Part shown: positions 2,461 through 59,066 of the stretch, piece after piece
Position numbering within the stretch: the stretch's first letter is position 1
How the letters are laid out: the number at the start of each line of letters is the position of its first letter
DNA from: Fodinicurvata sp. EGI_FJ10296
GTDB taxonomy: Bacteria > Pseudomonadota > Alphaproteobacteria > DSM-16000 > Inquilinaceae
DNA: 64,000 nucleotides
Direction of reading: 5' to 3'
Assembly: GCF_040712075.1 (NCBI RefSeq)
Contig: NZ_JBFCVL010000006.1
Coordinates: forward strand, 1-64,000
The notes under the pieces: generated by a model
Seen by the model: only the letters and a program-made list of their open reading frames with translations
The model's database searches: none
What the model was told of the DNA's origin: nothing
Program-made: the position numbers and the translations under genes

Positions 2461-6251
<3,791 letters not shown>

Positions 6252-42633: not shown

Positions 42634-44010
42634 TCAATCGTCCGTGGTTGTAAGAATGTCCTGAGCCTTCAGCCAGCCGGCCGAGCCGTTGGCGAGTTGG
42701 CTCTGCGCCCGCCGGGCCTGCGTTCGGGCCGCTTCGTTGTCGCCAAGGGCGAGGGCTTCTTCGGCAAGGGCGACCGATGCCATGCCGACATCGCCCGTCT
42801 TGCCATAGGCGGTAGCCAGAAGACGCCAGGTCAAGGGCGACCTGCCTTCGGGTCGCCCGGTCGCCTGTTCCAGTATGCGAATGGCCTCGCGCAAAAGGTC
42901 GCCGTCGTCGGAGGCGACGAGGGTCTGGGCATAGGATACGCCGATCAGCGGTTCGTCCGGCGCCAGCGAAAGCGCCTGGCGATAGGGTTCGCGCGCTTCG
43001 GCGATCCGACCTTGTTCGAACAGGATCTGGCCGTGCAATTCGTGAAAATACGGGTTGTTCGGTTCGCGCGCGATCAGGGCGCCTATTCCGTCCAGGGCGG
43101 TTGCCGTGTCGCCGCGGCGGTAATTGGCAATGGCACGACCGTATTGCGCGGCCACGGCGGTGTCGGCGGCATCGTAAAGTCGCAGCGCCTGCTGAGGTTG
43201 CATGAAGCCGAGCAACTTGGCCTGCATGCGGTCGAAGTCCTCTTGCATGCTGGCCGGCATGCGATTGCCCGTCGCCGGAGACCGGGAAACGTGGCCCTCG
43301 ACGGTCAGTGTGCGCTCCCGCGTTACCGGATGTGTTCGAGTATAGGCGCTCTGCCGGCTGCTGGGCAGCAGGTCCTGGTCTTCCAGCCGCCTGAGAAACG
43401 TCAGCATGCCTTCCGACGTCCAGCCCAGACGGTCGAGATAGGAGAGCGATGCCTGATCGGCGGACGATTCCATCACCCTGCTATAGGCCAGGAAGTTGCG
43501 CTCGGCCATGGAACCGCCGCCGGACATGATGGCGGCGCCGGCCCGGCCGTCGCCGGTTGCCAAAGCAGCGGCCAAACCCACGAGCGACGAGATCAGGACG
43601 TTGCGCTGTGCCCGCTCAAGCTCGTCGCGGCCCCGCGCAAGGTGGCCGGCGGCAATGTGTCCGGCCTCATGGGCAATGACGCCGACCAGTTCCTCCGGTG
43701 ATTGGGTGTCGAGGATCAAGCCGGTGTGAAGGTAGATGTTCTGTCCACCCGCGACGAACGCGTTCAGACTGTTGTCGGAGACAATATGGATCTCGACCCC
43801 GGATGGTGCGACGCCGGCGACCCTCAGGATTGGATCGGTCATATCGCGCAGGATATTCTCGATCTCGGCATCCCGGATCAGCGATATGCGCGATTGAGCG
43901 GCGGCCTGCACCGTCAATGCTGCGATCAGGCACAGCGATAGAACGGCAACAGCAGCACCGCGTACCGAAGTAACGCGTCGGATGCCGATCTGTGTCGTCA
44001 TTCGGGGCAT
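42634..44010 (-). CDS. BepA-like periplasmic M48 metalloprotease
   Basis: A protein of about 455 residues with a signal peptide (VRGAAVAVLSLCLIAALTVQ then AAAQS), a zinc site HEAGHIAAGH and the third ligand region ESSADQASLSYLDRLG. The C-terminal half is helical repeats, TPR-like (GAIANYRRGDTATALDGIGA-like, FHELHGQILFEQGRIAEARE). This is the BepA/YfgC layout; relatives degrade or assist outer-membrane proteins such as LptD. The start is uncertain: ATGs at 44001, 44010, 44013 and 44028 are all in frame. The DsbA-like gene follows six bases after the stop. Confidence 0.88.
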   Translation of the reverse strand: MPRMTTQIGIRRVTSVRGAAVAVLSLCLIAALTVQAAAQSRISLIRDAEIENILRDMTDPILRVAGVAPSGVEIHIVSDNSLNAFVAGGQNIYLHTGLILDTQSPEELVGVIAHEAGHIAAGHLARGRDELERAQRNVLISSLVGLAAALATGDGRAGAAIMSGGGSMAERNFLAYSRVMESSADQASLSYLDRLGWTSEGMLTFLRRLEDQDLLPSSRQSAYTRTHPVTRERTLTVEGHVSRSPATGNRMPASMQEDFDRMQAKLLGFMQPQQALRLYDAADTAVAAQYGRAIANYRRGDTATALDGIGALIAREPNNPYFHELHGQILFEQGRIAEAREPYRQALSLAPDEPLIGVSYAQTLVASDDGDLLREAIRILEQATGRPEGRSPLTWRLLATAYGKTGDVGMASVALAEEALALGDNEAARTQARRAQSQLANGSAGWLKAQDILTTTDD

Positions 44011-44226
44011 CATTAGGGCAGCAGACATCCAGACACCCATTGTCACGGTTGGAGTGGCGCCATATCGCCGGTGGAAGATCGGCGTCAAATATGGTGACCT
44101 GACGGCAACCCGCCGGGGAGCGCTCCGATCAGGGTTGCGTTCATTGGCGTTTACCGTCAAGGACCATATCCGCAACACCGGATCTACGATAGTGGGTCCG
44201 GCTCTGCTATCGATGCGAGGAACAGG

Positions 44227-45441
44227 ATGACCGACAACCCGCAATACCACCCGGAGCCGTATCGGGAAAGCCATAGTGCGCCGGCACTCAAGGTTGCGGA
44301 TCGGGCGAAGGTATCTCCGTTCATCGTCATGGACGTCATGTCGGCCGCCGCCCGCCGGGCCGAGACCCATGGCGATGTGCTCCACCTGGAGGTCGGACAG
44401 CCGGCGACGCCGGCCCCCGAGGGCGTGCGGCGGGCGGCGAAAACCGCGATCGATACCCGCGTGCTGGGCTACACCGTCGCCTTCGGCATTCCTGAGTTGC
44501 GCGCGCGCATCGCGCGGCATTACGGCGACGCCTATGGCGTGTCCGTCTCGCCCGACCGGATCGCGGTAACGACCGGGTCATCCAGCGGATTTCAGCTGGC
44601 GTTTCTGGCCGCCTTCGAGCCCGGCGACCGGGTCGCGCTCGTGGCACCGGGCTATCCGGCCTATCGCAACATCCTGTCGGCGCTTGGCTGTGTGCCGGTG
44701 GAAATTCCGGCCGGGCCGGAGACGCGATTTCAGCCGACACCGGATCTGCTCGACGCCTGGCAGCGCGAACACGGCGAAAGGCTGGCCGGTCTGATCGTGG
44801 CCAGCCCGTCCAACCCGGCCGGCACGATGGTGTCGCCGGACGAGATGCGCGATCTGGCGGATTATTGCCAGCGTGCGGGAATCCGTCTGGTTAGTGACGA
44901 GATCTATCACGGGATTACATTCGCGCGGCCGGCAACCACGGCGCTTTCGGTGTCCGGCAGTGCCATCGTCATCAACAGCTTCTCCAAATATTATTCGATG
45001 ACCGGATGGCGATTGGGCTGGATGGTGCTGCCGGAGGATCTGGTCCGTCCGATCGAGTGCCTGGCGCAGAACATGTTCATTTCGTCACCCAGTGTTTCGC
45101 AGTATGCGGCGATCGCCGCCTTTGACTGCACCGAAGAGCTGGAAGCCAATCTCGCGGTCTATCGCGTGAACCGGGACTTGCTGCTGGAGTCGCTACCGAA
45201 AGCGGGCTTCGGCGACCTCGCGCCGGCCGACGGTGCTTTCTACATTTATGCAGATGTCAGTCATCTGACGGATGACAGTCCCGCATTCTGCCGCCGCATA
45301 CTGGATGAAACGGGGATCGCCGTGACGCCAGGGGTCGATTTCGACACCACGCGCGGGCATCGCACCCTGCGCTTTTCTTTTGCCGGTTCGACGGCGGATA
45401 TGGGCGAGGCCATGGAACGGCTGACCGACTGGGTCCGATGA
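44227..45441 (+). CDS. PLP-dependent aminotransferase, class I/II
   Basis: A 404-residue fold-type I aminotransferase. The PLP lysine is in NSFSKYYSMTGWRLGW, the substrate-carboxylate region is VASPSNPAGTMVSPDEM and the Asp partner lies in LVSDEIYHGITF. The pattern resembles aspartate and aromatic or LL-diaminopimelate-type enzymes, but substrate choice cannot be read. The ATG at 44227 has AGGAACAGG before it. It is divergent from the BepA-like gene and 63 bases upstream of mtgA. Confidence 0.9.
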   Translation: MTDNPQYHPEPYRESHSAPALKVADRAKVSPFIVMDVMSAAARRAETHGDVLHLEVGQPATPAPEGVRRAAKTAIDTRVLGYTVAFGIPELRARIARHYGDAYGVSVSPDRIAVTTGSSSGFQLAFLAAFEPGDRVALVAPGYPAYRNILSALGCVPVEIPAGPETRFQPTPDLLDAWQREHGERLAGLIVASPSNPAGTMVSPDEMRDLADYCQRAGIRLVSDEIYHGITFARPATTALSVSGSAIVINSFSKYYSMTGWRLGWMVLPEDLVRPIECLAQNMFISSPSVSQYAAIAAFDCTEELEANLAVYRVNRDLLLESLPKAGFGDLAPADGAFYIYADVSHLTDDSPAFCRRILDETGIAVTPGVDFDTTRGHRTLRFSFAGSTADMGEAMERLTDWVR

Positions 45442-46271: not shown

Positions 46272-46483
46272 AGGTGTATCGGATTTGATAAATATCGGCA
46301 TGGTTTCTTGAAACTGGCTACAAATTAGAAAAAACGGGCTGATCGTTTGTGTATTGACGATCGTGAATATTAACCCGCCGTTAATTGATATCCGGTAGAT
46401 AAAAGGCATCTTTTGAGTCTGCGACGTTTGTGTGCACCATGACCGGCTGGTCCCGGCGTGCCCAAGACAGTAACCAGGTAGCC

Positions 46484-48307
46484 ATGAAGCAACTGTCCAG
46501 AAACCGGCGCGCGGATACCGTGCGGGAAGGCAGATCTTCCGGCAAGCTGGTCGTCTGGCCGCTCCTTCTCGGAATCGTGGGTTTGTTCGCAGCGTCCCTG
46601 GCAGCGCTGGCCGGGGCATTCGTATTGACAAGCAACGAGGCCGACGAACTTGCCGATGCCCACACGGCTGAACAATTCGTGGCGGCGCTTGAACAGGCCG
46701 CCGAAGATCTGGCGATGCGCAATCTGGATTGGGCCTGGTGGGACGAGGCAATCGACAAGTTCGTCATCTCGCCGGACGAGATATACGCCAACGAAAATCT
46801 GGGAATCTATGCGCAGGAAATCCTCGGTGTATCCGTAGCTCTGGTTGCCGTTCCGGATGGCGGTCTGTCATTCGCGTTCCTGGACGGCGCTCGCATTCCC
46901 CGGCCTGAACACGATGAATGGGCGGCTGTCGCAGCCCCCCTCGTGAGGGCGACACGGAATTCGTCCGCGCCGGATCAACCTCAGCCGGAAACGGGCTTCG
47001 TTACCGTCGGTTCGGACATTTTTCTGGTTTCTGCAAGCGCCATGGCGCTGGAATCGGGTGCTCCCATCGTCGGATGGGCGTCGCGTCCCGCCGTTCTGGT
47101 CTTTGGTCGTCGCCTGGACGACGGGTTCCTGCGGCAAATGAAACGGATTCTGGGGCTGGAATCGCTGGAATTGGTGCCGGCCGAGGAAGCTGGGCGCGCA
47201 TCCATAGCGATCACCGATACCGACGGCGATTCGATCGGCCATCTGCAATGGAGGCTGAACTATCCCGGCGAACGGATCGTAGCGACGCTGTGGCCGACGG
47301 CGGCAGTGATCGCGGTTGCCATGCTCGTTTTGGTAGGCATGCTGATGCTGTGGATCGCCAGCCACACGCGTGAATACCGCCTCGATCGAGAGCGGCGCGA
47401 GTCCGAACTCATCGAAGCGGAGCAACGCGCCACGGCGGCCGATCGGGCCAAGTCGCTATTCCTGGCCAATACCAGCCATGAATTGCGCACCCCGCTGAAT
47501 GCTGTCATCGGCTTTGCCGAAGCATTGCGACTGGAATATCTCGGTCCATTGAACGTACGGCAGCGGGAATATCTCGCCCATATAGAGGACGGAGGGCGTC
47601 ATCTGCTTTCCGTCCTGCACGACGTTCTGGACATGGCGCGGATCGAAGCGCGGCGCGAAGAACTCGAAGAAACCGATTTGTGTCTCAGCGACATCGTCAG
47701 TCGCGCCGTCGTATTGGTGGAGCCAAAGCGGCAGAACCATGAGTTGACGGTCGGTCGGACGGATTCCGCAACCGGGTTCCGACTGCGCGCCGACGAACGG
47801 CGCCTGCTGCAAATGCTCTTGAACATCCTTTCAAATGCGCTGAGTTTCTCGCCTCCGGGAAGCGGTGTCGATGTTTCAATAATCGCGGAGCGTTCTGCCG
47901 ATCTCGACACAGAAGAAGCTGGCACTGCCTTGGAGGCCGGGGGGCGTGATCTTCCGGGCCTGACGATTTCGGTTCGCGACCATGGGCCCGGCATTCCCGA
48001 CGCGGATATGCAGCACGTTTTCCGGCCGTTTCATCGGCCACTCGACCATTCCCATGACGGCAACAGGGAAAGCAACGGCCTGGGGCTGCCACTCACGGCC
48101 ATGCTAATGACTCTTCATGGCGGCAAACTGGAACTGGCCAATGCCGAAGATGGCGGTCTCCGTGTTTCGATGCGCTTTCCCCGATCGCGAACCATCGCCG
48201 CAGCGAAAGGCGGGACGAAACGTCATGCCCCGCGATTAGCAGCCTCCAGGCCCGACGAAGCAGTGCCGGCGGAATCCGCCGAGCAGCCGGTAGCGCTTTC
48301 GCGCTAG
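46484..48307 (+). CDS. Membrane sensor histidine kinase with CHASE4-like domain
   Basis: A kinase of about 607 residues. A membrane segment near the N terminus (VVWPLLLGIVGLFAASLAAL) and a second near residue 285-305 (VIAVAMLVLVGMLMLWI) flank a periplasmic region with LDWAWWDEAIDKFVISPDEI, the CHASE4 hallmark. The cytoplasmic part has the phospho-acceptor box SHELRTPLNAVIGF, N box NILSNALSFSPP and G boxes DHGPGIP and SNGLGLP. There is no adjacent response regulator. The ATG at 46484 follows AGGTAG; upstream in-frame starts at 46430 and 46439 add an unlikely tail. The gene ends about 165 bases before the peptide-modification region and might control it, but that is speculation. Confidence 0.87.
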   Translation: MKQLSRNRRADTVREGRSSGKLVVWPLLLGIVGLFAASLAALAGAFVLTSNEADELADAHTAEQFVAALEQAAEDLAMRNLDWAWWDEAIDKFVISPDEIYANENLGIYAQEILGVSVALVAVPDGGLSFAFLDGARIPRPEHDEWAAVAAPLVRATRNSSAPDQPQPETGFVTVGSDIFLVSASAMALESGAPIVGWASRPAVLVFGRRLDDGFLRQMKRILGLESLELVPAEEAGRASIAITDTDGDSIGHLQWRLNYPGERIVATLWPTAAVIAVAMLVLVGMLMLWIASHTREYRLDRERRESELIEAEQRATAADRAKSLFLANTSHELRTPLNAVIGFAEALRLEYLGPLNVRQREYLAHIEDGGRHLLSVLHDVLDMARIEARREELEETDLCLSDIVSRAVVLVEPKRQNHELTVGRTDSATGFRLRADERRLLQMLLNILSNALSFSPPGSGVDVSIIAERSADLDTEEAGTALEAGGRDLPGLTISVRDHGPGIPDADMQHVFRPFHRPLDHSHDGNRESNGLGLPLTAMLMTLHGGKLELANAEDGGLRVSMRFPRSRTIAAAKGGTKRHAPRLAASRPDEAVPAESAEQPVALSR

Positions 48308-48391: not shown

Positions 48392-48419
48392 TTGCGGTGT
48401 TGATGGATTTTGTTATAAG
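48392..48419 (+). promoter_or_regulatory. Candidate promoter of the peptide-modification region
   Basis: TTGCGG (48392-48397) and TATAAG (48414-48419), with a 16-base spacer, in a locally AT-rich stretch. The -10 box agrees at five of six positions, the -35 at three. The first gene begins 52 bases after the -10 box. Confidence 0.45.
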
Positions 48420-48471
48420 ATTTTTCGGGGCGCTTGGGCTTTTTCGTCAATCATGGATCTGGAGAATCACC

Positions 48472-48798
48472 ATGCCCGAGCCAGACGAGACGCGAATCCG
48501 ACTCCTCGAAGAGTCGTTGAGAGACCTTCGCAATAATCTGGGGCCGACGGTCGTCAACCGGCAGCCCCGTCCGATCGATCCAAGTCCGATAGCGGGACGC
48601 ATCGATGCGGCGGAGAAAACGGTCGAACGCATCGTTTCCGCCGGCGTGCTCAAGGATCAGGAGGCGGGCCGGTTCAAGGATCTTGCCAGCGCTGCCATCA
48701 ACGATCAGGTCCGCGAAATAATGCGCGGCGGAACCGGCGATGTCGCTGCCACAATCAACGTGACGGTTTCCGGCACGGGCACGATCTCGGTTTCATAG
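48472..48798 (+). CDS. Candidate modified-peptide precursor
   Basis: A 108-residue protein I do not recognise. It begins MPEPDETRIRLLEESLRDLR, has a helical, charged N-terminal part, contains no Cys, and ends after Gly86-Gly87 with a 21-residue tail of Thr, Ser, Val, Ile, Asn and Gly in which polar and hydrophobic residues alternate (ATINVTVSGTG, then TISVS). The ATG is preceded by GGAG. The Gly-Gly could be a leader cleavage point, as in many peptide natural-product precursors. It is the first gene upstream of a PqqD-like and three radical-SAM/SPASM-type genes. Precursor status is inference; it could also be a small structural protein. Confidence 0.6.
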   Translation: MPEPDETRIRLLEESLRDLRNNLGPTVVNRQPRPIDPSPIAGRIDAAEKTVERIVSAGVLKDQEAGRFKDLASAAINDQVREIMRGGTGDVAATINVTVSGTGTISVS

Positions 48799-48921
48799 CG
48801 TATTTTCGTATCGGCGTCGGTGAAGTTCGGTCGTCGGTGACGGCGGCCGGAAAGGGGGATTGCGTGCGCGGTCTCCCTGCCGACATCGATGCCGCTCGTC
48901 GCTCGATCCGGAGATCGCACA

Positions 48922-49281
48922 ATGGCACCGACATCCCAGAATTGGGAGGAGGCGACGGTTGCCGCCGTCTCCCGGTCGCGCCTGAAGCGCGGCCCGCATG
49001 CACGCGCCGTCGACTTCGGACAGAGCCTCCTGTTCGTCCTCGCGTCGCGCAGCCGTCCTGTCTACAAGCTTCATGCGACGCCGGCTCAGGCTCTGGTCTG
49101 GAACGTTCTGGCGGAATCCCGCACCCTCGGCGACATTATCGACCTTCTCCGCCGCGACTTTCCTGAATTGCGTCCGATCGATGCCGCCTGGATCGTGGCC
49201 GATCTTCGCCGGCGCTCTATCGTCATCGCATTGGAAGAATCGGATCCGCCCGGCGTCGCGCGGCCAAGGAGCGCGCTATGA
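48922..49281 (+). CDS. PqqD-like peptide-recognition protein
   Basis: A 119-residue protein with the PqqD/RiPP recognition-element pattern: three short beta strands (DFGQSLLFVLASRSRPVYKL-like), then ATPAQALVWNVLAESRTL and a helical end DAAWIVADLRRRSIV. Known members bind leader peptides and bring them to radical-SAM enzymes. The start at 48922 has GGAG eight bases upstream; an ATG at 48889 is in frame. The stop overlaps the next gene as ATGA. There are 123 bases between it and the candidate precursor gene. Confidence 0.75.
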   Translation: MAPTSQNWEEATVAAVSRSRLKRGPHARAVDFGQSLLFVLASRSRPVYKLHATPAQALVWNVLAESRTLGDIIDLLRRDFPELRPIDAAWIVADLRRRSIVIALEESDPPGVARPRSAL

Positions 49282-50675
49282 ATTCGCCAGCCGACCGGAC
49301 TCCGGCTGCATCGGCGCCGGCGGACGAAGGCGGTTCTCCCGAACCGTCCCGGGAGTCGATTGGCAAGCCATTCCTGTGCGCCGTGCCGCGTCCGGATGGC
49401 GGTGCCTTCGTCATCGATGCACCGACCGGCGCCATGCTCCGGCTTTTGCCGGGCGACGTCGACGATTTGCTCGCGGGTGCGGTCCCTGTGGATGAGCACA
49501 GCGATTCAGGCGACATCGGGCCGGGGGCCGAATCGGGCGCGAAGCAGGACGTGGCGTCGGGACCCGGCGAGGCGGAACTGTTTCGCGAAGCATGTACAGA
49601 GGTGCGGTCGGCCGATGCAATAGCAGCCAGTCTCCGGCTTGGCTTCGTGGTCGATCGGTTGTCCGACGATGAGGCCGCCGAGGCCGTCGCGGACGCCTGC
49701 GACCGGCTTGCCCATTCAACGGCCGAGCGGATCTTCGTCCATTTCTGGGTCGGCGACGCCGATGCGTGGGACAAAGCAGGCAGTATTGCCCGCACTCTGT
49801 CCACGGCCGGCGAGGGCCGCATCTCGGGCGTAAGCCTGACGCTCGACCCCAGCCTGCCGATAACGCCGGCGGCGGAGGCGGCGACGCTGGAATTGGCGGG
49901 CCTGGCGCCGCGCGGGCGTCAGGTCGTTTTTCGTCTCGGTCCCGATGCCCTGGCCAGAGCCGGCGATCCCGACCTTCTCGCGCGCATGACCTTTGCCTGG
50001 CAGGGGGTCCTGTTCCGCCAGCGGTTCTCGCCCAGCTTCGTTCTTGCCGTGACGCCGTCCACGCTCGAAGCGATTGGCGGATCGGTGTTCGAGGCTCTCT
50101 GTTTCTCAGGCGTTTACCCGCGCAATGTCTTTGTCGTCTTTGCCGCCGACGGTGCGCAGAATGCGGGGCTGTGCGAGGTCTACGACACGAACTGGGACGC
50201 CCATGGCGCCCTGGCGCCGGCATTGCTGTCGCGGCCGACACACCGGCTGGTCGAACCGCTGGCGCTGGGGCTGGCGGATGTGATCCGGGGGTTCATCCTT
50301 TCGGACAAACGGTGGATGCGGACCTCTGGTTGCCCCTTTCCGCGCCAGGGCGTCGTTTATGCCGGCGGCTTCGCGGCGCGCTGCCCGGTTGCGGCCGTCA
50401 AGGCGGCGGGATCGGCTCTGCCGCCATCGATGGCGGCGGGGGTCCCGGAGTTTTCCAGGGGGCAGGGCAGCGGGCAAGTCTGGCCCGATGAGTGGTCCGG
50501 GCGTGGTCCCCAAAGTGTCCCGCAGTGCAAGACATGCCGAGTGGCACCGCTTTGCGGGTCGGGCTGTGCCGTTCGCGCCTATGAGACGCACGGGCACCTG
50601 ATGGCGCCCGACTGTCCGCCGATAGGCCGCGTGCTGACTGCCGAAGGGGCGATATGCGCGGCAGCCGACGTTTGA
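49278..50675 (+). CDS. SPASM-domain protein lacking the radical-SAM cysteines
   Basis: A 465-residue protein whose C terminus has a SPASM-type cluster-binding pattern: Cys417, Cys420, Cys426 and Cys430 in CKTCRVAPLCGSGCAVRAYE, then Cys446 in APDCPP. Earlier cysteines occur in SGCPFPRQG and ARCPVAA. The middle looks like a TIM-barrel of the radical-SAM type (IFVHFWVGDADAWDKA at the first strand), but the CxxxCxxC motif is absent. It may be a degenerate enzyme acting as a partner or scaffold. The N-terminal FVIDAPTGAMLRLLPGD region is shared by some peptide-modifying enzymes. Coupled to the PqqD-like gene by ATGA overlap. Confidence 0.72.
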   Translation: MNSPADRTPAASAPADEGGSPEPSRESIGKPFLCAVPRPDGGAFVIDAPTGAMLRLLPGDVDDLLAGAVPVDEHSDSGDIGPGAESGAKQDVASGPGEAELFREACTEVRSADAIAASLRLGFVVDRLSDDEAAEAVADACDRLAHSTAERIFVHFWVGDADAWDKAGSIARTLSTAGEGRISGVSLTLDPSLPITPAAEAATLELAGLAPRGRQVVFRLGPDALARAGDPDLLARMTFAWQGVLFRQRFSPSFVLAVTPSTLEAIGGSVFEALCFSGVYPRNVFVVFAADGAQNAGLCEVYDTNWDAHGALAPALLSRPTHRLVEPLALGLADVIRGFILSDKRWMRTSGCPFPRQGVVYAGGFAARCPVAAVKAAGSALPPSMAAGVPEFSRGQGSGQVWPDEWSGRGPQSVPQCKTCRVAPLCGSGCAVRAYETHGHLMAPDCPPIGRVLTAEGAICAAADV

Positions 50676-50724
50676 GTTTTCCCGTCCCCGCGATCCGATC
50701 GGGGCTAAGCACGAGGAGGGCCTC

Positions 50725-51897
50725 ATGACGAGTGAGTTCGAAGCCGCGTCAACCGGCAGTTCCGCCACCGCTCTTGCCAGTCCGCCACCTCTCGTGCGGG
50801 GGCCTGATTTGGGGCCGGATCTGGCTGACGACATTCAGGCGTCGCTGGCCGGAGCCTATATCCTTGATGACCGGCTTCAATGGGTGGAAGCACTTGCGGC
50901 ACTTGGCGGGGTGCGGGGACGGGAAGCCTGGTACCGCTTGGCCGGCATGAAGCCGGACGGCGTCAATCCGCGTCCGCTGGCTGCCCAGATCGAGTTCACC
51001 CAGAGATGCAACTTGACCTGTTCCTTCTGCTACAATGACAGCGGTCCCGACAATCGGGACGAATTGTCGATGGATTGCCTTGCCTCGGTCTGTCAGCAAC
51101 TGATCGATCTCCAGGTTGCGGAACTGATCATATCGGGCGGCGAACCCCTGATGCGCCCGGCCCATCTGGGGCTGGTTCTGGACATCTTTTCCGGCAGCGG
51201 CATTCCCATCCATGTCCTGACCAACGGCACGTTGATGACCGATGCCTGGTGCCGGCGGCTCAAGGACGCGGGAGCGGTCACCCTTCAGGTCAGCCTGGAT
51301 GGCGGCGATCCTGCGGTGCACGACGTCGTGCGCGGCCGCCGTGGATCCTGGGCAAAGGCGCTGGGAGGCCTGGCCATGGCGGCCGACCACGGGCTTCATA
51401 CCTTTGTGTCGACCGTTTTGACCCGCGACAACGTCGCCTCGCTGCCGGCGCTGGTCGACGCCTGCTATCTTGCGGGTTGCCGGACTTTGAATATCGGCGA
51501 CCTGATTACCTGGGGGCGCGGCGACCCGTTCATGGCGTCCGGCGCCTGTACGGATGACCAATATGACGATGCCGCCGAGTTCATCCGCGCACGCGGTCTG
51601 GCGCTTCAGGACCATATGGATATCCGGCTGGCGGTCAGCATGTATTTCTATATCTGCCAGCTTCGCTATCGCGGGCAGGAAAGCATGCTGATCCGGGGCG
51701 ACGGCAGCGTTCGGCCGCATTGCACGCTCTCTGGAATCGTCTGTGGCTCGGTACACGAAGAAAGCCTGGCCGAGATCTGGGACCGGCGCCTGGCGGCCGT
51801 TCACCGCAGTGCGGAACTCGACGCCGTGCTTGCGGCCCATCAACTCGTCGTCACGCCCCGTCTTCGGCAGATCCGCTGCGCTCGGAGGTCATCATGA
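50725..51897 (+). CDS. Radical-SAM enzyme with partial SPASM/Twitch tail
   Basis: A 390-residue enzyme with the canonical CxxxCxxC (Cys95, Cys99, Cys102 in QRCNLTCSFCYND), the GGEPL motif in LIISGGEPLMRP, and LTNGTLM and SLDGGDPAVHD typical of peptide-modifying radical-SAM proteins. The C-terminal part has RGDGSVRPHCTLSG and GSVHEESLAEIWDRR, a Twitch/SPASM-like end with few cysteines. A 94-residue N-terminal extension precedes the barrel. GAGGAG lies before the ATG. The stop overlaps the next start as ATGA. Confidence 0.85.
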   Translation: MTSEFEAASTGSSATALASPPPLVRGPDLGPDLADDIQASLAGAYILDDRLQWVEALAALGGVRGREAWYRLAGMKPDGVNPRPLAAQIEFTQRCNLTCSFCYNDSGPDNRDELSMDCLASVCQQLIDLQVAELIISGGEPLMRPAHLGLVLDIFSGSGIPIHVLTNGTLMTDAWCRRLKDAGAVTLQVSLDGGDPAVHDVVRGRRGSWAKALGGLAMAADHGLHTFVSTVLTRDNVASLPALVDACYLAGCRTLNIGDLITWGRGDPFMASGACTDDQYDDAAEFIRARGLALQDHMDIRLAVSMYFYICQLRYRGQESMLIRGDGSVRPHCTLSGIVCGSVHEESLAEIWDRRLAAVHRSAELDAVLAAHQLVVTPRLRQIRCARRSS

Positions 51898-53285
51898 AGG
51901 TTGCTCTGGTTATCGCCGTCAGCGAATACGCTGCATATACCATGCTCGATCAGGAATCGGATCCGCCCCTGGGGGTGCTTTACCTGGCGACCATCATCCG
52001 CGATCGCCACGAGGTGCGGATTTTCGACGGGCAGCTTTCGCTGTCGAGTCCGGAGGATTATGCCGCGGAGGTTCTGGCCTGGGAGCCGGACGTCGTCGGT
52101 TTTTCGGTCAATTTCTCGACCGTTGCCCGCAATACATGGCGTATGGCCGAGGCCGTGCGCGCGGCCCGGCCGCAGATGCCGATCGTGCTGGGCGGCAATT
52201 TCGCAACCTTCCATGCCGAGGAGGTCATGGGCAAGGCCCCGGTGGACTACGTCCTGCTGCACGAGGCCGAGGTGAGTTTTCCGGCGCTGCTCGACCGTTT
52301 GGCCGACCCCACGTCGCCGATGCCCGATGGCATCGTGTTCCGCGACGGCGACGGGAGTCCGGTCCGGCTGCCATTCGGGCGCTATATCCAGGATCTGGAC
52401 GAGCTGCCGTTTCCCGATTTCGATCTATTCGACGATCCCTCGCGATACGCCAAATCAATGGTAACCAGCCGTGGGTGCCCCTACACCTGCGTTTATTGCT
52501 CGACGCGGGAAATGTGGAAGAAATGGCGCAGCCGGAGCGCAGAAAACATGGTCGATGAGATGATGGCGCTTCAGGCGCGATATGGCTGTTCGCAGGTTCT
52601 GCTTGCCGACGATATCTTCATCGTCAACAAGAAGCGCGTTCACGAAGTCTGCGATCTTCTGATCGAGCGAGGCTCGCTGGTGCGCTGGGGGTTTTCCACC
52701 CGGCTTGAAACCCTCAAGGACGAGATGATGCCAAAGCTGGCCCGTGCCGGCGTCACCGGTATCTTCCTGGGCATTGAAAGTGCCTCGGAGCGCGTGCTCG
52801 CGCATATGGAGCGCCGCTATACCCGACAGGAGATCATCGACAAGATCGATCGCCTCGCCGATTTCGGCATTACGGCATCAGCCAGTTTCATCATCGGCCT
52901 GCCATGGGAAACCGAGGAGGATGTGCGCGTGACCTTCGAGACGATGCGCCGCATCCGAACTCACCGCGTCCTGCTGAACATCTTTACCCCGTTGTCCGGC
53001 ACGCTGTCGCTCAGCCGTCCGGAAGACTACGGCCTGGAATTCATCGAGACCTATGACCCCGAACGGGCCGTCGTCGGCCATGGATACGTGAACTTCAACA
53101 CGCCTCATCTGACGGCGCAGCGCATCAAGCATCTCTGGCTCGAAGGTCAGGCAATCGTCATCGCCAAAGGCCGCGAGAAAAGCCGCCTGGAAGCGGAATT
53201 GAGCCGCAACCGCTATGGCCTGCTGGCCGACCCGGCAGCGGAGTCAGCGCAAGCCGAGGAGACACAATCGCACGCCTTCGGATGA
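51894..53285 (+). CDS. Cobalamin-binding radical-SAM enzyme
   Basis: A 463-residue class B-type radical-SAM protein. The N-terminal half is a B12-binding Rossmann-like domain (PLGVLYLATIIRDRHEVRIF, VVGFSVNFSTV, IVLGGNFATFHAEEVM, DYVLLHEAE), and the radical-SAM motif is CxxxCxxC (Cys195, Cys199, Cys202 in SRGCPYTCVYC). GIESASERVLAHMERRY and SFIIGLPWETEEDV are usual for the family. Known relatives methylate unactivated carbons or rearrange bonds. The AGGTC-type site and ATGA overlap with the upstream gene place it last in a coupled set. The substrate is not known; the precursor-like gene upstream is the best guess. Confidence 0.88.
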   Translation: MKVALVIAVSEYAAYTMLDQESDPPLGVLYLATIIRDRHEVRIFDGQLSLSSPEDYAAEVLAWEPDVVGFSVNFSTVARNTWRMAEAVRAARPQMPIVLGGNFATFHAEEVMGKAPVDYVLLHEAEVSFPALLDRLADPTSPMPDGIVFRDGDGSPVRLPFGRYIQDLDELPFPDFDLFDDPSRYAKSMVTSRGCPYTCVYCSTREMWKKWRSRSAENMVDEMMALQARYGCSQVLLADDIFIVNKKRVHEVCDLLIERGSLVRWGFSTRLETLKDEMMPKLARAGVTGIFLGIESASERVLAHMERRYTRQEIIDKIDRLADFGITASASFIIGLPWETEEDVRVTFETMRRIRTHRVLLNIFTPLSGTLSLSRPEDYGLEFIETYDPERAVVGHGYVNFNTPHLTAQRIKHLWLEGQAIVIAKGREKSRLEAELSRNRYGLLADPAAESAQAEETQSHAFG

Positions 53286-57995: not shown

Positions 57996-59066
57996 CTATC
58001 TGTCGTGGTCGATTTTCTGCGACTCCGGCTCCTCGGCAGCGGTCACGGGGTCTGTCCCGGGGCGCCGGGGGGTGCCGAAGCGCGCCATGACGATGCCGGC
58101 CAGGACCACCCCGGCGCCCATGGCCTGGATCGACCCGATCGCTTCGCCCAGTACCAGCCAGGCCAGTCCGGCGGCTGCGACCGGCTGGACCAGAAGGCTG
58201 ACCGACGAAAAGGCAGCGGGCAGATGGGCGAGAGCATAGGTGATCAGGCCTTGCCCGCCGGCATGGCTGATCAGGGCCAGCGCGACCAGAATGGCCCAGC
58301 CGGTCATCGTCGCTGGCAGGAATGATTCGCCCGACAGCAGGCCGGCGGGAATCAGGAATGCCGTCGTCGCCAGCGCGCTCCACGCCATGATGGTTGCGGT
58401 GGAAAACCGCGCCCTGAGACGTCCGATGGCGATGATGTAGCCACCATAGAACATGGCCGTGATCACACCCAGGAAATCGCCGAACAGCGTTTCCGGACTG
58501 ACCGTCAGGCTGTCGCTCATCAGCAGGGCCGCGCCCGCGAGCGACAGCACCATGCCGATCAGGAACAGGCGCGTGACCCGTTCGCCGAACAGCAGATAGC
58601 TGACCCCCGTGACGATGACCGGCGCCAGATTCGCCAACAAGGTGGCATTGGCGACCGAGGTGAAGTTGATCGACCAGTGCCAGAACGCGAGATCGCCAGC
58701 GAACAGAAAGCCTGCCAGCGCCAGCAGCGCATAGTCGCGAAGGCCGCGCGGTACGGCGGGTTTCGCCGATTTTGAGTGCCGCATGCCGCCGTTTTCGGCA
58801 GCCATCCACATCATCAGTGCCGGGACCGCGATCGCGACCCGCCAGACCGCCGTGGTCGTCGGCCCGATCTCGGACAGGCGCACGAAGATCGGCGACAGCG
58901 CGATCGCCAGGGCGCCGAGAATCAGCAGGGCGAATGCGATCGCGGCCGTCCGGCCGGTGGCCAGAGTTACGACTGTACCCCTGCGGCGGCGCGATCGGTT
59001 GCTGTCGTGGGCGATCGTCGATTGGGAGGTTGTCGTCCGGTGTTGCGGCGAGGTCATATTGGGCAC
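57996..59066 (-). CDS. EamA-family drug/metabolite transporter
   Basis: A 356-residue ten-helix inner-membrane transporter of the DMT superfamily, made of two EamA repeats. Hydrophobic segments start at AAIAFALLILGALAIALSPI; VATGVSYLLFGE-like and PVAAAGLAWLVLGEAIGSIQ mark the end of each repeat. The first 30 residues are a basic, hydrophilic tail (MPNMTSPQHRTTTSQST), so the start may be 59066 or 59057. Members export amino acids or other metabolites; the substrate is unknown. Divergent from the N-formylglutamate hydrolase gene. Confidence 0.9.
   Translation of the reverse strand: MPNMTSPQHRTTTSQSTIAHDSNRSRRRRGTVVTLATGRTAAIAFALLILGALAIALSPIFVRLSEIGPTTTAVWRVAIAVPALMMWMAAENGGMRHSKSAKPAVPRGLRDYALLALAGFLFAGDLAFWHWSINFTSVANATLLANLAPVIVTGVSYLLFGERVTRLFLIGMVLSLAGAALLMSDSLTVSPETLFGDFLGVITAMFYGGYIIAIGRLRARFSTATIMAWSALATTAFLIPAGLLSGESFLPATMTGWAILVALALISHAGGQGLITYALAHLPAAFSSVSLLVQPVAAAGLAWLVLGEAIGSIQAMGAGVVLAGIVMARFGTPRRPGTDPVTAAEEPESQKIDHDR

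Follow-up and report, generated by a model that had tools for sequence, protein, structure and literature searches.

The closest architecture to the locus described here is presumably that of GeoRSP, which we take to combine a PqqD family protein, a SPASM protein without a radical-SAM domain and a radical-SAM/SPASM protein (NCBIfam TIGR04303 and its partners). Both pyrroloquinoline quinone (PQQ) and mycofactocin derive from Tyr-containing cores, ApyD chemistry acts on Tyr, and the core motif of the Tig peptides is TIGSVS. In the Tvg cyclopropylglycine system, TvgB makes this residue from Val in a TVGG repeat and the five tvg genes, as set out in the available part of the report, encode a precursor, a radical-SAM enzyme, a dioxygenase and two transporter-type proteins (PMC9062424). 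The B12 methyltransferases of the proteusin polytheonamide have been proposed to act on Met, Gln, Ile, Thr and Val, PoyC methylating the C-beta of Val (PMC5682303). Of the sets found in the literature, the nearest is an MNIO cluster that includes both a recognition-element protein and a B12-binding radical-SAM enzyme; no ApyD is mentioned in its available text (PMC12257519). This article describes a candidate operon of five plus-strand genes, P0001 to P0005, located at 48472-53285 of the window, that is, the 64,000 nucleotides at positions 1 to 64,000 of contig NZ_JBFCVL010000006.1 of the alphaproteobacterium Fodinicurvata sp. EGI_FJ10296.

On balance the operon probably encodes a peptide-modification pathway of the type that makes ribosomally synthesized and post-translationally modified peptides (RiPPs), with no assigned class. 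A first-pass annotation made from the sequence alone had proposed such a compact five-gene pathway, and its genes and frames were confirmed. They comprise a small protein of 108 amino acids and candidate precursor (P0001, 48472-48798), a PqqD-like protein of 119 amino acids and putative recognition element (P0002, 48922-49281), a SPASM protein of 465 amino acids with a barrel-like region (P0003, 49278-50675), a radical-SAM protein of 390 amino acids (P0004, 50725-51897) and a B12-binding radical-SAM protein of 463 amino acids (P0005, 51894-53285). A GGAG-type ribosome site precedes the start of each gene, and the codon-position G+C of the five resembles that of four other measured genes. The junctions were also as proposed, with ATGA overlaps between P0002 and P0003 (49278) and between P0004 and P0005 (51894), a gap of 49 nt holding a GAGGAGG site between P0003 and P0004, and a longer one of 123 nt after P0001. 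For the small protein, the ATG at 48472, which has GGAG ahead of it, is the best start and replaces 48392.

The enzyme trio P0003-P0005 was found in the same order in a metagenome-assembled genome (MAG) of the Sneathiellales, another order of the same class, with identities of 36, 55 and 61%, respectively; because it recurs in order at this distance, the trio is considered to be beyond chance. In the MAG the ATGA overlap between the P0004 and P0005 homologues is kept. The contig (JALXAG010000260.1) opens at the SPASM gene, and in its first 29 bases an open frame of eight codons runs into an ATGA overlap with that gene, which is compatible with a coupled upstream gene like the PqqD-like gene here, the stretch being too short to count as proof.

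The most interesting new point is that the SPASM motifs are divided over two conserved adjacent chains. P0003 and its MAG relative both possess CX2CX5CX3C, along with the Cys that flank it in a complete SPASM domain, and have no CX3CX2C, in agreement with the first-pass description of a SPASM protein without radical-SAM cysteines; seven Cys are identical in the two proteins (C352, C369, C417, C420, C426, C430 and C446). The reverse pattern occurs in P0004 and its relative, which contain CX3CX2C (at residue 95 in P0004) and no CX2CX5CX3C, the SPASM domain of P0004 being partial, and have six further Cys in common, three of them C-terminal (311, 333 and 385). Thus in both organisms the two motifs lie in separate chains. 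With the SPASM model TIGR04085, P0003 scored 23.1 bits, just under the cut-off of 27, and the MAG relative 26.0, while their other weak profile matches were mostly the C-termini of peptide maturases, the exceptions being PorD and a bacteriocin-precursor model, both with the MAG relative. No Pfam family matched P0003, and a search of the PDB with its profile returned nothing but zinc-finger chains rich in Cys (best 0.011) and a procathepsin. The AlphaFold model, which had the two sequences as input, is well predicted only at about residues 121-250, where strands and helices alternate. When this barrel was compared by VIA-align, the first ten of 50 listed entries were all radical-SAM enzymes (Z 9.7-7.6, values below 8 possibly reflecting a common arrangement, as the tool itself warns), including several viperins and lipoyl synthases; past rank 10 the list was a mixture of TIM barrels and further radical-SAM enzymes. 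The model supports, without proving it, the view of P0003 as a decayed radical-SAM barrel. Taken together, P0003 and P0004 resemble a single SPASM enzyme split over two chains, in which P0003 would aid P0004 in trans.

The assignment of the two catalytic proteins was confirmed by Pfam, P0004 matching Radical_SAM at 6.3e-28 and P0005 matching both Radical_SAM (6.9e-28) and B12-binding (5.7e-19), with its CX3CX2C at residue 195. Among the 17 PDB sequence matches of P0004 the nearest solved structures are SkfB (9.6e-23) and PqqE (1.2e-16), and for P0005 they are AprD4 and OxsB. No NCBIfam model shown reaches its own cut-off on P0004. These neighbours, the weak likeness of the SPASM partners to maturases and the rank of ApyD as the top NCBIfam profile of P0005 support the first-pass idea of peptide-maturase-like enzymes.

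Within the genomes searched the P0003-P0005 family is narrow and rare. Models of P0004 scored 814 and 833 bits on the two clusters and 124 on the next of 385 genomes of the class, at least 690 lower, although the P0004 and P0005 models were built from the two cluster sequences and part of this gap exists by construction. An alignment search with P0005 in the same genomes recovered only the two clusters at 1e-50, and one with the radical-SAM alignment 17 of 385 at 1e-25, the neighbourhoods of two of the 15 other than self and MAG being read. P0003 matched eight of the 385 class genomes at E<=0.01, namely itself, the MAG and six at <=22.4 bits that were taken as chance. Among 17 genomes from the same family and order as the window's it matched only itself, among the nine genomes of the MAG's order only the MAG, and in 398 genomes of the phylum only itself apart from one 19.9-bit match; no more than four candidates per genome were scored when P0003 or the alignments were searched at class or phylum level. 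Pattern scans of genome contigs, which depend on short identical stretches and overlook remote relatives, gave 318 stretches and no relative for P0003, and 98 stretches for the radical-SAM alignment, with the Sneathiellales contig as the only relative. In plasmid records P0003 had no match at E<=1e-3 and P0002 none at E<=1; P0005 had nine, none above 33.7% identity, and P0004 had 248, all below 60%, the 20 listed lying at 26.7-30.4%. No gene named PqqD-like stood in three plasmid regions viewed for context, and PqqD/MftB sequences were sought in five plasmid regions, of which two lacked annotation. No relative came from viral contigs.

The candidate precursor P0001 has no Cys, Trp or Tyr and carries Gly-Gly at residues 86-87, as the first-pass annotation had described for a Cys-free protein. 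Its N-terminal part appears helical by eye, and in its tail (ATINVTVSGTGTISVS) small or hydrophobic residues alternate with polar ones over 16 positions. Shuffling the last 24 residues 100000 times gave a perfect alternation of this length in 22 cases, and none of 85 open reading frames (ORFs) of >=250 amino acids from three stretches of the same genome has one; P0001 is also the only one of 280 ORFs of 40-160 amino acids in the window with an alternating tail of at least 13. The proposed core would comprise residues 88-108, after the Gly-Gly (48733-48795, plus strand), in which T-I-x-V-x occurs twice, as TINVT (94-98) and TISVS (104-108). Since Cys, Tyr and Trp are missing, thioether, tyrosyl and indole chemistries are ruled out on P0001, which leaves methylation, epimerisation, cyclopropanation or ether-type links; the tail could plausibly be the core on which radical chemistry acts at aliphatic residues.

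In the proposed mechanism the N-terminal part of P0001 would act as a leader, which the PqqD-like P0002 would bind in order to hand P0001 on. Hydrogen abstraction by P0004 would then take place at aliphatic residues in the C-terminal tail, while its partner P0003 would supply the SPASM auxiliary Fe-S cluster or clusters that P0004 is without, and P0005 would modify the tail a second time, perhaps by C-methylating Val, Ile or Thr. Proteins encoded elsewhere might trim and export the product, or it might be kept as a modified protein. The genes and their motifs were observed, as were the three enzymes, conserved and in the same order, in a second organism; the role of P0001 as substrate, the pairing of P0003 with P0004 and the reactions are what we infer. 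A bolder version, which seems to us rather doubtful, is that of a new RiPP class in which a heterodimer of a catalytic chain and a pseudo-radical-SAM chain carrying the auxiliary clusters, together with the B12-binding enzyme, makes from the alternating aliphatic tail a strand that carries C-methyl groups, epimerised residues or cyclopropane rings. If this is true, SPASM auxiliary Fe-S clusters can be supplied in trans, and their role as electron conduit or in substrate binding would be directly testable by omitting the partner. As the candidate core is without Cys, Tyr and Trp, the five-gene set would be a clean system for aliphatic radical chemistry.

Several results weigh against a peptide pathway of this kind. 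The PqqD identity of P0002 is weakly suggested by its sole Pfam match, PqqD PF05402, with an E-value of 0.2 over 24,736 models and a score of 12.5 bits where the cut-off is 23.4; for a single pre-set model the E-value becomes about 8e-6 by arithmetic, the match spanning just 25 profile positions, and none of 10 shuffles of P0002 matched any Pfam family at E<=1. Other searches did not support this first-pass call: P0002 had no match in NCBIfam, only the unrelated TRIM72 (E 0.25) in the PDB by sequence, and no rank above shuffles with a model of three PqqD/MftB proteins, which hardly align among themselves. Its single-sequence fold was too poor for use (pLDDT 42.7). For P0003 the mean pLDDT of the model is 46, and Foldseek gave no match at E<=0.001, its top rows being mostly other TIM barrels. 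P0004 passes the SPASM cut-off by little (23.1 vs 21.5 bits), and may be complete with one auxiliary cluster and require no partner. According to the available part of a published account, many SPASM/twitch enzymes hold just one auxiliary cluster (PMC9012708), and the existence of such enzymes weakens the reading of P0003 and P0004 as a split SPASM enzyme. Methylation by P0005 is a guess, because ApyD, BchE and AprD4 are not known to be methylases. Any counterparts of the first two genes would lie beyond the edge of the MAG contig, so that the refutation test named by the first-pass annotation, conservation of the small protein beside the enzymes, is undecided; no match to P0002 was detected at E<=1 in the whole MAG, the same search giving P0002 a 0.13 match elsewhere, on contig C4. 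In 20 of about 280 MAG contigs, six of which were covered only to 20,000 bases, tblastn found neither P0001 nor P0002 at E<=1, and none of 946 small ORFs there, the cluster contig included, had an alternating tail of at least 13.

That the enzymes tailor a small molecule, for instance a tetrapyrrole or another cofactor, with P0001 unrelated or serving as a carrier, is judged unlikely. The profiles point in this direction, since the best NCBIfam models for P0004 are AhbD, NirJ and NirJ2, the top one being the haem synthase AhbD, and the second best for P0005 is BchE; the next two matches of P0004 in rank within the class adjoin, by eye, a protoporphyrinogen oxidase-like gene, and neither a peptidase nor an exporter was seen beside the cluster. 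Against it, the scores fall far under the curated cut-offs (AhbD 104 of 500 bits, BchE 160.5 of 481), the two clusters stand well apart from the next genome of the class in the P0004 search (a gap partly by construction, as said above), and a PqqD-like protein with SPASM partners weakly matching peptide maturases suits peptides better. A peptide pathway acting on another substrate, whose precursor lies elsewhere or in an unrecognised short ORF while P0001 is a neighbour or an accessory, has a smaller chance still. P0001 is without conservation evidence: no homologue was detectable among 372 genomes of the class (20 at E<=0.05, itself and 19 others of which none exceeded 18.9 bits), plasmid records gave no match at E<=1, the two PDB sequence matches (E 0.019 and 0.4) were judged chance, no Pfam family matched, and the only two NCBIfam matches at E<=1 (0.11 and 0.12) are unrelated. 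It is also separated from the next gene by the 123-nt gap, and the alternation test on its tail was post hoc, chosen after inspection, one of the 85 comparison frames having an alternating run of 15. P0001 as the substrate is favoured by its position as first gene of the operon, on the same strand and with a good ribosome site, by its unusual tail and by the hairpins in the gap. A pathway to a peptide-derived redox cofactor of the PQQ or mycofactocin kind appears very improbable, for although a PqqD-like protein adjoins SPASM-type radical enzymes, P0001 has no Tyr, no further Pqq- or Mft-type enzyme was seen among the seven neighbours scanned, and P0004 stays below the cut-offs of the PqqE and MftC equivalogs (90.8 of 381 and 94.9 of 265 bits). 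The RiPP-type reading of the first-pass annotation is best described as partly supported.

Comparison with the named classes spoke against membership or left it undecided in each case. The searches turned up no class with exactly these five parts, and the first-pass annotation had known of none, but GeoRSP, by the architecture given above, comes closer than that annotation allowed, having the same three parts as P0002, P0003 and P0004. It differs in that P0004 scored 85.8 bits against the TIGR04303 cut-off of 400 (85.2 in the genome search, the sole match in the window's own genome), that no GeoRSP model was among the matches of P0002, P0003 or the P0003 relative, and that the B12-binding enzyme and the small protein are extra here. 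The SynChlorMet enzymes ScmE and ScmF are likewise radical-SAM/SPASM enzymes among the weak matches of P0004, which scored 85.7 and 81.4 bits where each cut-off is 400. The cores of the Tvg/Tig peptides, to which TINVT and TISVS can be compared from sequence alone, place Val or Ile next to Thr, Gly or Ser, and these systems use a radical-SAM/SPASM enzyme; TigE (8vpo) was not among the PDB matches of P0004, and the five tvg genes, so far as the available text describes them, include no PqqD-like or B12-binding radical-SAM gene (PMC9062424). Proteusins offer an alternating pattern like that of the tail and a radical-SAM epimerase with B12 methyltransferases. P0001 matched none of their nitrile-hydratase- or Nif11-like leader families in Pfam or NCBIfam, and P0005 has CX3CX2C instead of the Cx7Cx2C given for PoyB and PoyC in the available part of the source (PMC5682303). 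ApyD is the top profile of P0005 and of its MAG relative (192.5 and 167.6 bits, cut-off 750), and its Tyr chemistry is impossible on the Tyr-free P0001; sactipeptides and ranthipeptides differ in needing Cys for their thioethers. Open-licence literature, absence from which is weak evidence, held no comparable set under PqqD, SPASM, B12 and RiPP, and no relevant report on GeoRSP, SynChlorMet or degenerate or pseudo radical-SAM proteins with SPASM.

Two non-coding regions accompany the genes. The region upstream of P0001 (48308-48471, plus strand), a possible operon promoter region, has a G+C of 50.6% against 64.3% for the window, and a sigma-70 scan found no site in it. The stretch between P0001 and P0002 (48799-48921, plus strand) can form stable RNA hairpins (-63.8 kcal/mol and z -3.0 for 48790-48925, a stability equalled or exceeded by 3 of 200 shuffles), possibly an attenuator or mRNA stabiliser; hairpins are commonly found downstream of RiPP precursor genes. 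The upstream neighbour, 164 nt from P0001 on the same strand, is a CHASE4 histidine kinase (46430-48307), and the downstream one is a pyruvate kinase on the opposite strand. Among the seven neighbouring ORFs scanned (42.6-57.2 kb) no response regulator was found. There was also no exporter among them; the first-pass annotation had seen no exporter and no dedicated peptidase nearby. The sole peptidase of the seven, an M48 peptidase with TPR, lies at 42634-44520 on the opposite strand and not beside the cluster. A permease-like ORF lies, by eye, at 57996-59066.

Both clusters are located within 4 kb of an opposite-strand M48 peptidase gene, the one in the MAG (3887-4996) directly adjoining the B12-binding radical-SAM gene. 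This proximity is probably a coincidence, because the peptidases differ, TPR matches occurring only in that of the window.

One C39 peptidase was found in the genome, on another contig. It belongs to a microcin-like cluster on the minus strand (7075-12977 of C1:390000-408000), with a C39 ABC exporter, HlyD-like and DsbA/DsbB-like proteins and four small double-glycine ORFs, all but the C39 assigned by eye. The leaders of these four read [LM][TN]xxE[IV]xx[IV]xGG by eye, and the corresponding part of P0001, INDQVREIMRGG, keeps the GG, the N and the hydrophobic ends and not the E[IV]. The Gly-Gly motif of the first-pass annotation is present with a partial fit to the double-glycine leaders of this genome. 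Export of P0001 through the C39 protein was set aside, as that protein has four ORFs of its own and the leader fit is partial, though it could still act in trans. Because the fit is partial, removal of the leader is left unexplained, and P0001 may stay whole. Of the small ORFs in the C39 cluster, one carries by eye a repeated YPxPGP tail and another is Gly-rich with two Cys.

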